DNA from: Chloroflexia bacterium SDU3-3
GTDB lineage: Bacteria; Chloroflexota; Chloroflexia; Chloroflexales; Roseiflexaceae
DNA length: 58,198 nt
Direction of reading: 5' to 3'
Assembly: GCA_009268125.1 (NCBI GenBank)
Contig: WBOU01000015.1
Location: 1-58,198, forward strand
Shown here piece by piece: positions 4,897 to 58,198 of this stretch; position 1 is the stretch's first letter, and every line of letters starts with the position of its first letter. A program made the position numbers and the translations under genes. The notes beneath the pieces were generated by a model, which did not search any database, was not told where the DNA came from, and worked only from the letters and a program-made list of their open reading frames with translations.

Positions 4897-5847
4897 ATGC
4901 GATCCAATATGCGACCTGCGGCGCGGGCCTCGGTGGGGGCTGGCGTGCTGATGATTGTGCTGGCCTCGGCGATGTGGGGGACGGTGGGCGTGGCGACCCA
5001 GCTGATCTACGGGATGTCGCAGGCCAACGCGCTGACGGTGGGCTTCTTTCGGCTGGCGATCGCCGCGCCGGTGCTGCTGGCGGCTGGCTGGCTGCTGCTG
5101 GGGCGGCGGATGTTCGCGGTGCGGCGGCGCGACTGGTGGCTGTTTGCGGGCATCGGGGCGCTGACGGCGGCCTACCAGGTGTGCCTGTTCTCGGCCATCC
5201 CGTTTGTGGGGGTGTCGATCGCGGTGGTGGTGACGCTGTGCGTCGCGCCGGTGGTGGTGGCGCTGGCTAGCGTGTGGCTGTTCGGCGAGCCGCTGACGCG
5301 CAGGGTGGTGCTGGCGCTGGCCTGCGCGCTGGGCGGCACCGCGCTGCTGGCGGGCGGCGGGGCTGGCCTGCCCAGCGAGCCGGGGGCGGTGCTGCTGGGT
5401 GTGGCGCTGGCGGTCGGCTCGGCGGTCGGCTACGCGGGCATCGCGCTGATCGGGCGGGCGCAGGCGGGGCGCTACCACCCCATCCAGCCGGTGGCGTTCG
5501 GGTTTGGGTTCGGCGCGCTGCTGCTGCTGCCCTGTGCGCTGGCCCAGGGGCTGGTGGTGGATCTGCCGCCGCTGGCCTGGGGGCTGCTGCTGCACCTGGG
5601 GCTGCTGCCGACGGCGCTGGGCTATGTGCTGTTCTTCTTCGGCATACGCGGGGTGCGCGCCACGGCGGCCAGCGTGATCACGCTGATCGAGCCGCTGACG
5701 GCGGCGGCGCTGGCCTGGGCGATGTTCGGCGAGCGCCTGAGCGCGGCGGGCGGCCTGGGGGCGATGCTGCTGCTGGCGGCGATTGGGCTGCTTTCGTGGC
5801 GCGAGGCTGGGCCGCAGCGGGCGGCGCGGTCGGCTTCTGGGGGGTAG
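4897..5847 (+). CDS. EamA (DMT superfamily) transporter
   Basis: The 316-residue protein has ten hydrophobic segments in two homologous halves, the arrangement of the drug/metabolite transporter EamA family. Family signatures include MWGTVGVATQ near the N terminus, AAYQVCLFSAIPFVGVS in the first repeat and ALGYVLFFFGIRGVRATAASVITLIEPLTAA in the second repeat. Members export amino acids, purines or other metabolites across the inner membrane; the substrate is not evident. ATG 4897 follows AGGGGAG. The transcript leader carries a proline-rich mini-ORF and a fold that hides the ribosome binding site, so expression is probably controlled translationally. Confidence 0.85.
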   Translation: MRSNMRPAARASVGAGVLMIVLASAMWGTVGVATQLIYGMSQANALTVGFFRLAIAAPVLLAAGWLLLGRRMFAVRRRDWWLFAGIGALTAAYQVCLFSAIPFVGVSIAVVVTLCVAPVVVALASVWLFGEPLTRRVVLALACALGGTALLAGGGAGLPSEPGAVLLGVALAVGSAVGYAGIALIGRAQAGRYHPIQPVAFGFGFGALLLLPCALAQGLVVDLPPLAWGLLLHLGLLPTALGYVLFFFGIRGVRATAASVITLIEPLTAAALAWAMFGERLSAAGGLGAMLLLAAIGLLSWREAGPQRAARSASGG

Positions 5848-5944: not shown

Positions 5945-6190
5945 TGTTTGGTGGGTGGATGCCCTGCGCAGGCGGTGCCTAGGGGCCAGCCCTCACATGG
6001 CGTCACGTTTTGACGGGTTTGTCATCAGTGATGGCGGTGGTGCTTGTTTGGTGGGTGGATGCCCTGCGCGGGCGGCGACTAGGGGCCAGCCCTCACATGG
6101 CGTCACGTTTTGACGGGTTTGTCATCAGTGATGGCGGTGGTGCTTGTTTGGTGGGTGGATGCCCTGCGCGGGCGGCGACTAGGGGCCAGC
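5945..6190 (+). repeat. 100-bp direct repeat, about 2.5 copies
   Basis: The blocks starting at 5961, 6061 and 6161 repeat at exactly 100 bp. The unit contains GGTGGGTGGATGCCCTGCGC, AGGGGCCAGCC, a CTCACATGGCGTCACG segment and GTCATCAGTGATGG. It is an amplified 5' part of the composite intergenic element. Confidence 0.9.
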
Positions 6191-6335
6191 CCCTAGTAAC
6201 CCCGCGAGGGGGTGTGACCCCCTTCGAACCCTCAATTTTGAGTGTTCCTGTGCTGAAAGCTGGCTGCTGATGTTCGTGCATATGGCCATCAATACACAAG
6301 CGACATCTTCGCCGCATGGGCTGGGTGGGTGAAGT
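6124..6335 (+). repeat. Composite intergenic element, copy A
   Basis: It starts ATCAGTGATGGCGG, then GGTGGGTGGATGCCCTGCGC, hairpin 1 (CTAGGGG/CCCCTAG, 6179-6196), hairpin 2 (GGGGGT/ACCCCC, 6208-6222), hairpin 3 (CTCAATTTTGAG, 6231-6242), then GTTCGTGCATATGGCCATCA and TCTTCGCCGCATGGGC. The usual 3' end is replaced by the 21-bp array. Other copies: B 33526, C 36840, D 39320, E 39055, F 29203. Confidence 0.85.
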
Positions 6336-6339
6336 GGGC

Positions 6340-6630
6340 GAGCGGTCGACGAAGGCGGGTGAGCGCTTGACGAAGGCGGGTGAGCGGTCGACGAAGGCGG
6401 GTGAGCGGTCGACGAAGGCGGGTGAGCGGTCGACGAAGGCGGGTGAGCGCTTGACGAAGGCGGGTGAGCGGTCGACAAAGGCGGGTGAGCGGTCGACAAA
6501 GGCGGGTGAGCGCTTGACGAAGGTGGGTGAACGCTTGACGAAGGTGGGTGAACGCTTGAGGAAGGCGGGTGAGCGCTTGAGGAAGGCGGGTGAGCGCTTG
6601 AGGAAGGCGGGTGAGCGCTCAACGAGGGCT
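6340..6630. repeat. 21-bp tandem array, 13 units plus a degenerate 14th
   Basis: Units of 21 bp begin at 6340, 6361 and so on to 6592. Two main types alternate irregularly: GAGCGGTCGACGAAGGCGGG and GAGCGCTTGACGAAGGCGGG (plus a final T); the last units carry CTTGAGG. It lies between facing halves of the composite element (6269-6327 and 6634-6690). Confidence 0.95.
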
Positions 6631-6633
6631 TTC

Positions 6634-6690
6634 CATCCACCTAGCCCATCCGGCGAAGGTGCCGCTGGGGTTTTGCTGGCCATGATCACC
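6634..6690 (-). repeat. Inverted half-copy of the composite element
   Basis: On the minus strand this reads TGATCATGGCCAGCAAAACC then AGCGGCACCTTCGCCGGATG, matching the second module of the element in copy A in opposite orientation. It flanks the 21-bp array on its right. Confidence 0.75.
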
Positions 6691-6843: not shown

Positions 6844-7287
6844 ATGCGACGTGCGTTTTTTCCGATGCTGTGTGTTGCGCTGGTTCTGACCGCCTGCGGT
6901 GGCGCTGCCGATCTGACGGTGGCGGTGCCGCCGAATAGCAAGGTGGTCGAGACCACGGGCGCATCGACTGTTGACACGCTGATCACATCCTGGCGCAATA
7001 CGGTGCCGGCCTCGATGACCGAGCGCGGCATCAAGGCCGAGTCGCTGGAGCAGAAGGTCTACACCACCACCGATTCGCTGGAGGCGGTGCAGGCGTACTA
7101 TGAGGCGAAGTTCAAGGACCAGAACGGCTGGACGCGCTCGATGCGCTCGCCGGGGCTGGATGCGGCGCAGGGTATCCTGATCGAGGGCTACGAGCATAGC
7201 GGCACCTCGATGGTGGTGGGGGCGATCGATGCCTCGAAGTACGGCGGCAGCGGCGTAGTGATCTACACGGCCACCGGCCACAAGTAG
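6844..7287 (+). CDS. Putative lipoprotein
   Basis: The 147-residue protein starts MRRAFFPMLCVALVLTACGG: a short positive n-region, a hydrophobic core and an LTAC lipobox, so it should be lipidated at Cys18 and anchored outside the membrane. AGAAGG lies 6 nt before ATG 6844. The mature part is about 130 residues with mixed alpha/beta character; I recognise no enzyme motif. Similar small lipoproteins of unknown role are common in Chloroflexota. It converges on nuoN and shares a bidirectional terminator with it. Confidence 0.7.
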   Translation: MRRAFFPMLCVALVLTACGGAADLTVAVPPNSKVVETTGASTVDTLITSWRNTVPASMTERGIKAESLEQKVYTTTDSLEAVQAYYEAKFKDQNGWTRSMRSPGLDAAQGILIEGYEHSGTSMVVGAIDASKYGGSGVVIYTATGHK

Positions 7288-33329: not shown

Positions 33330-33410
33330 GTGCAGGGCGGGTGCTTCGGGCTGCAGGGCGAGTGCTTCGGGCTGCAGAGATGAAGTTGTTCTGCGTTGAT
33401 GTGTCTCTCT

Positions 33411-33467: not shown

Positions 33468-33525
33468 TTTGGTTCCGTTCGTTTGCTAGATGGATGTCCC
33501 CTCGCGGGGTTCACCGCTGGCGTGC

Positions 33526-33797
33526 TATAAGCGATGGTGGTCGTTGTTGGTTGGTGGGTGGATGCCCTGCGCGGGCGGCGACTAGGGGCCAGCCCCTAGT
33601 GACCCCGCGATGGGGCTACGCCCCCTTCGAACCCCCAATGTTGAGCGTTCCCGTAACGTCCCCTGGCAGCTATTGTTCGTGCATATGGCCATCAAACCAT
33701 GAGCGACACCTTCGCCGCATGGGCCGGGTGGGTAAAGCTGGCGACTCGCCATTTCTATTTTTCTTTCCTTGGGGTCTTGGAGTCTTGGTGGTAAAAA
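33526..33797 (+). repeat. Composite intergenic element, copy B (full length)
   Basis: The order is ATAAGCGATGG, GGTGGGTGGATGCCCTGCGC, hairpin 1 (CTAGGGG/CCCCTAG), hairpin 2 (GGGGC TAC GCCCC), CAATGTTG, GTTCGTGCATATGGCCATCA, GCGACACCTTCGCCGCATGG, GCTGGCGACTCGCC followed by ATTTCTATTTTTC, and the tail CTTGGAGTCTTGGTGGTAAA. This is one of the most complete copies. Confidence 0.88.
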
Positions 33798-38897: not shown

Positions 38898-39054
38898 TTC
38901 ACCACGGAGATTTTCACCACGAAGACGCGAAGGCACGAAGATTTTTACCACCAAGACTCTAAGACACCAAGGGGACCGTTTTACCACGAAGATGCGAAGG
39001 CACGAAGATTTTTACCACCAAAACTCCAAGACGCCAAGAGAACAGGAGGACCGA
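38898..39054. repeat. Block of CGAAGG and CCAAGG repeats
   Basis: TTCACCACGAAGACGCGAAG, GCACGAAGATTTTTACCACC, AAGACTCTAAGACACCAAGG and two further cycles. The two subtypes alternate here, showing that they form one superfamily with 8-9 bp internal periodicity. Confidence 0.85.
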
Positions 39055-58024: not shown

Positions 58025-58198
58025 ATGGTGATTAAGCGTTCGGCGATGGTGATTAAGCGTTCGGCGATGGTGATTAAGCGTTCGGCGATGGTGATTAAGC
58101 GTTCGGCGATGGTGATTAAGCGTTCGGCGATGGTGATTAAGCGTTCGGCGATGGTGATTAAGCGTTCGGCGATGGTGATTAAGCGTTCGGCGATGGTG
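58025..58198. repeat. Perfect 21-bp tandem array, at least 8 units
   Basis: The unit ATGGTGATTAAGCGTTCGGC plus G repeats from 58025 without a single change, 8 full copies and 6 nt of a ninth, and runs off the window. Read in frame it spells MVIKRSA seven-residue units, but there is no ribosome binding site. It shares the 21-bp period and an AAGCGYTC core with the array at 6340 (minus strand). Confidence 0.97.

Follow-up and report, generated by a model that had tools for sequence, protein, structure and literature searches.

Arrays of 21-bp tandem repeats at the inward ends of a dispersed intergenic module in Chloroflexia bacterium SDU3-3

Tandem arrays with a 21-bp period occur at the ends of a dispersed repeat module, most of all between two facing modules, far beyond chance expectation and only on that side and in that orientation of the module. 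The same arrays constitute a genome-wide class of their own, which is enriched at module ends. The case that drew attention lies in a stretch of 58,198 nucleotides of contig WBOU01000015.1 (the window). It is tentatively read as a bacterial minisatellite, seeded by slippage in the loop between facing modules and adjoining the inward (3') end of a MITE-like repeat that is specific to this species; we place this account a little short of probable. Bacterial minisatellites are usually thought to be born by chance, with a unit length that differs by locus. That about 16 unrelated sequences here have one unit length in common suggests that the birth of tandem repeats follows a rule, and facing-module junctions offer a concrete, clonable substrate on which such a rule can be tested.

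The window locus and its repeat elements

The features of the window are the following (coordinates, strand, description and basis):

5945..6192, +, left part of element A in 2.5 tandem copies with a 100-bp period (TRF; repeat family D2)
6125..6335, +, left boundary approximate, element A, about 200 bp and hairpin-rich (78-copy consensus, alignment, covarying hairpins)
6282..6331, +, left module, the 3' end of element A, directed at the array (alignment; genome-wide family)
6336..6629, +, tandem array of family F1, 14 units of 21 bp, consensus GGGTGAGCGCTCGACGAAGGC (TRF, unit count)
6634..6683, -, right module, inverted and directed at the array, a B-like or divergent relative of the A end (alignment)
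33331..33377, +, minimal 21-bp array of 2.2 units (TRF)
58025..58198, +, second 21-bp array, family F2, ATGGTGATTAAGCGTTCGGCG, continuing to contig position 58335

The F1 array is intergenic, between a gene ending at 5847 and a gene starting near 6864 (a longer frame starts from 6787), and no promoter-like site was seen near it. TRF reports a period of 21, 14.0 copies, 0% indels and a score of 413. A unit-by-unit count likewise gave 14 units in 294 bp, with 9 different sequences, where the preliminary description had counted 13. That description also held that facing, inverted module copies flank the array, which alignment bore out: the two modules share 41 of 50 bases, ungapped, with a score of 55 that was reached by none of 1000 shuffles of the right flank (best shuffle 25). 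The pair is absent from the repeat-finder listing of inverted arms, which leaves the alignment as the evidence for the inverted match.

The flanks had further been taken for halves of one element, with the array at its palindromic 3' end. Neither idea was supported. The left flank, which agrees with the A consensus at 56 of 60 bases, is an ordinary A end, the right flank is a B-like copy in its own right, and isolated A copies occur without an inverted half. The right module matches the A consensus at 41 of 47 bases, is neither A nor B under a strict motif and is A under a looser one; by its sequence it appears intermediate between the two classes. The proposed loop held by long inverted repeats is physically reasonable. 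Folded as single-stranded DNA, 6269-6690 is predicted to form a long stem of both modules, about 45 bp, around a loop that contains the array, at -84.2 kcal/mol (z = -2.89; none of 100 shuffles was as stable). An assembly artefact is an unlikely source of the array, because its units vary internally and unrelated loci repeat the layout.

The other two arrays of the window both lie upstream of A elements, the minimal one upstream of the copy at 33520-33744. This minimal array has 18 of 21 bases in common with the array unit at C5:387127. The F2 array (C15:58025-58335) runs past the right edge of the window and contains a 10-N scaffold gap, just before which the window stops, so that its true length may differ from the one given. 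Variants of a third dispersed repeat, CTTGGTGTCTTGGTGGTAAA / CTTCGTGTCTTCGTGGTA, are present at 38903-39038 and at many other intergenic sites, often directly after element A. At gathering thresholds, the sole Rfam match in the window is a truncated 16S rRNA at 1-82, at the contig start.

The module is essentially confined to this genome. Across its 6.76 Mb, 377 matches were found at no more than two mismatches, against 3 for the reversed control. At no more than one mismatch there are 340; the 81 other genomes of the order each have between 0 and 3, which look like chance. The element core was recovered in 2 of 26 genomes of the family, the second being a 26-bp match, and in a collection of 85,000 species, from which this genome's own records were possibly omitted, a 23-base pattern was matched just once, by a Streptomyces contig. 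In the sampled part of the genome (1.667 Mb, defined below), 111 of 112 module matches fall outside called genes. From the same sample, 78 full-length copies yielded the consensus of element A, of about 200 bp; class B is shorter and shares with A the end ATGGCCAGC...CACCTTCGC(T/C)GGATGGGCGAGGCC. An alignment of 24 A copies, hand-picked among the better matches, revealed compensating two-sided changes in 4 of 44 predicted hairpin pairs, one of them in 13 of the 24 sequences, and no terminal inverted repeat obvious by eye. Flank-to-flank direct repeats of the 78 full copies were at the level of shuffled pairs, that is, no target-site duplication, of 21 bp or any other length, was detected at A ends. 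The modules have no linked transposase: the genome has two Y1_Tnp (IS200/IS605-type) loci, L155 (C1:263293) and L156 (C4:181851), one with an adjoining TnpB-like gene, and neither has a clear module in its flanks of about 1.5 kb. Elsewhere in the genome (L015, G000:C3:166113-166898), element A is present as four tandem copies spaced by about 218 bp.

Genome-wide arrays and their position relative to modules

The distribution of 21-bp arrays was assessed in 1.667 Mb of the same genome (the first 400 kb of contigs C2, C3, C4 and C5, plus C15:1-67000), picked by contig and not by content, the window itself excepted. TRF gave 39 merged arrays with a period of 21, 42 or 63, of which 6 in called genes were dropped and 33 kept. 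Gene calls came from a codon model built for this analysis rather than from a standard gene finder; by these calls the window array and 31 others of the 33 are outside genes, and C5:262372, which overlaps a weak 321-bp call, was retained. Extrapolated from 33 in 1.667 Mb, the whole genome would hold about 130-134 intergenic arrays.

The 21-bp step is a property of intergenic arrays. It is the period of 23 of the 25 that have at least 8 units and of 27 of the 49 with at least 3.5 units, among which 42 (four arrays), 63 (one), 20 (two) and 22 (one) also occur; only 5 of 47 coding arrays of at least 3.5 units share it, and periods of 12 and 18 are commoner there. Exact intergenic duplications outside arrays also have 21 as their commonest period (6 of 19). 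Five of these six were tested and four resemble no array family; the one at window 33341 belongs to the family of C5:387127, and that at C3:167108 was assigned to F2 by eye. Duplications in coding sequence show no excess at 21 bp (11, against 23 at 18 and 17 at 15). Units follow one another head to tail with no spacer between them, arrays commonly end in partial units, and higher-order patterns of 42 bp and longer are present in C2:62819 and C4:5972.

The units themselves are largely unrelated. Single linkage at 15 of 21 matches grouped 34 period-21 units (32 of them from intergenic arrays) into 16 families, a figure that varies from 14 to 19 over thresholds of 14 to 17; at 13 of 21, where chance matches are frequent, 7 families remain and 17 of the 32 units are joined. 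Descent of all families from one ancestor by divergence was considered and found no support, since similarity between families is at the level of shuffled units, although a very old kinship is possible. Family F2 has 69 double-unit matches in its own genome and none in 81 other genomes of the order. Eight F2 arrays that were compared share no flank of at least 20 bases at no more than two mismatches. Arrays of F1, F3, F8 and F14 do have matching flanks of that length, which might suggest the spread of composites of module and array; this is only a suggestion, because the matched flanks are mostly A/B sequence itself and 28 of 275 array pairs of different families match as well. In F1 and F14 the orientation of the unit relative to the module is constant. 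On its upstream side, a cas1 gene at L159 (G000:C12, about 42 kb) has both an F2 array and a module.

Association with modules was evaluated by placing the same array lengths at random in intergenic DNA (400 rounds). Around the 33 arrays, 14 module ends aimed at an array lie within 100 bp, against a null mean of 0.94 (maximum 5), and no module end aimed away from an array does so, against a null mean of 1.56. Four arrays lie between facing modules (null mean 0.06, maximum 1), a count reached in none of the 400 placements. The window array, which is one of the four, is what drew attention, and the choice-free count is 3 of 32. The search for other copies with an array at the same junction, proposed at the outset, thus returned three in the sample (C2:62819, C4:5972 and C4:41061) and two more (L024 and L039) among 27 loci of this genome outside it; these loci hold 14 arrays in all, and the set is biased, 26 of the 27 having been fetched for holding the element.

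At the closest junctions the distance to the module is short. Arrays start 5-10 bp past the ATGGG core of a B module, with differing units, at C2:150484, C3:15278, C4:5972 and L024, and 8-21 bp past that of an A module at C3:60646, L043, L044, C4:41061, C2:62819 and in the window; other gaps between array and module are longer.

The suspected tie between arrays and module ends is therefore correct as an enrichment, but it does not extend to most arrays. A module lies within 100 bp of 10 of the 33 arrays and within 400 bp of 17, leaving 23 and 16, respectively, with none, so that an array can persist without a module. Conversely, 4 of the 12 facing module pairs within 700 bp hold an array and 8 are empty. 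Because of the 23 arrays with no module nearby, the arrays are considered a class of their own. A k-mer enrichment of the flanks, including those of arrays that have no module, recovered no further shared motif beside the A and B sequence.

In the sampled stretches of three genomes of the same family this intergenic class was absent: G009 (200 kb) and G001 (245 kb) have no period-21 array of at least 3.5 units, and G005 (131 kb) has a single one, at a contig end and apparently in coding sequence. With one array expected in every 50 kb, these samples are small.

Possible origins of the arrays

Slippage in the loop between facing modules is our working model. Facing modules would pair in single-stranded DNA during replication, looping out the DNA between them, and the paired modules, or the end of a single module, would make the polymerase stall and copy a short segment again. 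Once two units are present, ordinary slippage or unequal recombination would enlarge the array; the patterns of 42 bp and longer at C2:62819 and C4:5972 are of the kind usually left when multi-unit slippage or unequal recombination makes an array grow. Some composites of module and array would then travel as one piece, and bare arrays such as those of F2 would disperse as well. Since 21 bp corresponds to two turns of B-DNA, seeding dependent on helical phase would fit the period, although the units lack a 10-bp sub-period. The fixed step is evident in the data, yet ordinary slippage does not predict it, and the model does not account for F2 arrays that share no flanks. Neither target duplication of 21 bp nor coding constraint accounts for the step: flank-to-flank repeats around the 78 full A copies are no different from those of shuffled pairs, which sets aside a target-site duplication made on insertion, and coding heptad repeats are discounted by the intergenic position of the arrays and the lack of a 21-bp excess among coding duplications. 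A CRISPR array was also rejected, the units being head to tail with no spacers.

It is conceivable that the arrays are the older partner and that A/B elements land at or beside existing 21-bp intergenic minisatellites. Such an order of events would fit the 23 of 33 arrays that are more than 100 bp from any module, as well as the locus C2:62819-63548, in which one element has a different array on each side. It is nonetheless unlikely, given that modules within 100 bp are always directed at the array (14 against 0), that F1 and F14 units hold their orientation relative to the module, and that the same unit, expected on both sides of an element, was seen in none of the flanks inspected. Selection on spacing, by a protein or nucleoid that needs sites two helical turns apart in any sequence, would agree with strictly intergenic arrays of constant step and free sequence. 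This is very unlikely, as the arrays share no motif, no promoter-like site accompanies the window array, and units have no sub-period of about 10 bp (self-match at lag 10 of 0.278, against 0.23-0.31 at other lags).

The constancy of the step could also reflect a tandem duplication process of fixed length, independent of sequence, that acts in intergenic DNA and for which modules merely mark favoured sites, for example fill-in after a nuclease has cut 21 bp apart, or the action of a reverse transcriptase that makes repeats. The same step in about 16 unrelated unit families, the period-21 duplications outside arrays (6 of 19, with 4 of 5 tested unlike any family) and the lack of a 21-bp excess in coding sequence are in line with it. 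So is the presence of a full-length UG37 reverse transcriptase, given that DRT10, also of the UG group, makes tandem-repeat cDNA (PMC12632851). The UG37 enzyme (800 bits, G000:C23:54060-56399; L157, L186) is of defence type and the sole RVT_1 match in the genome; of 158 genomes of the class, full-length UG37 scores came from this one, from G075 and from six that belong to a single other genus. Against such a process, no enzyme is linked to the arrays, A elements are not flanked by 21-bp direct repeats, and the common partial end units are not predicted by blunt fill-in. The UG37 locus, moreover, contains no array unit except for low-complexity or 4-mismatch matches, and the available text of the DRT10 paper does not mention UG37 (PMC12632851). 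In this form the process is improbable, and UG37 as the array maker is a real but unlinked possibility. A lineage process that makes such two-turn duplications in intergenic DNA, again length-fixed and sequence-independent, and favoured at the inward ends of A and B, is rather doubtful; if true, bacterial minisatellites would here form in a new, enzyme-driven way, with the UG37 reverse transcriptase or a staggered nuclease as possible agents. For the window array, slippage between facing modules is retained as the preferred account.

Comparison with known systems

REPIN/BIME repeats, which go with a RAYT transposase, occur as hundreds of short intergenic hairpin repeats, some as facing pairs with a loop. 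The modules described here resemble them in number, intergenic position, facing pairs and conserved hairpins (4 of 44 covarying pairs in A), but no RAYT is linked to them and their loops can carry 21-bp arrays. Assignment to REPIN/RAYT was rejected on the grounds that there are only two IS200/IS605-type loci, neither beside a clear module. Non-autonomous Helentron-type elements of the Pacific oyster reportedly have internal satellite-like arrays that spread with the element; arrays carried by an element are the point of likeness, although those elements are eukaryotic.

DRT10 (UG17) is a bacterial reverse transcriptase that produces tandem-repeat cDNA from a short RNA template (PMC12632851). 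The enzyme found here belongs to another UG group, UG37. In the available portion of that paper the product is not described as chromosomal arrays, and no link to the present arrays is shown.

The closest known system is the BrickBuilt MITE of Porphyromonas gingivalis, in which a spacer-less 23-nt minisatellite, in 19 copies, lies between leader and tail flanks with inverted-repeat ends (PMC4596501). BrickBuilt is intergenic, is confined to one species and near relatives, has assembly gaps at its loci and is predicted to form long stem-loops (PMC4596501). Both systems comprise a short-unit minisatellite between inverted ends, intergenic and narrowly distributed, with an assembly gap and a predicted stem-loop. 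The module has further traits of a MITE, being high-copy (377 matches), short, non-coding and intergenic; it is not filed as one, because the test for target-site duplication was negative and it has no known parent element. BrickBuilt, as described, has one 23-nt unit, whereas about 16 unrelated 21-bp units occur in the 1.667-Mb sample; most arrays here, unlike BrickBuilt, have no flanking modules, and no target duplication was found. The arrangement with inverted ends is limited to 4 of the 33 sampled arrays (the window and three other loci), together with L024 and L039. The open-access literature yielded no description of bacterial genomes in which many unrelated arrays share one fixed period, which is weak evidence of absence. 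Within that literature, the sequence-independent 21-bp step is without analogue and the local structure has one: where modules face each other, the present case works like BrickBuilt.
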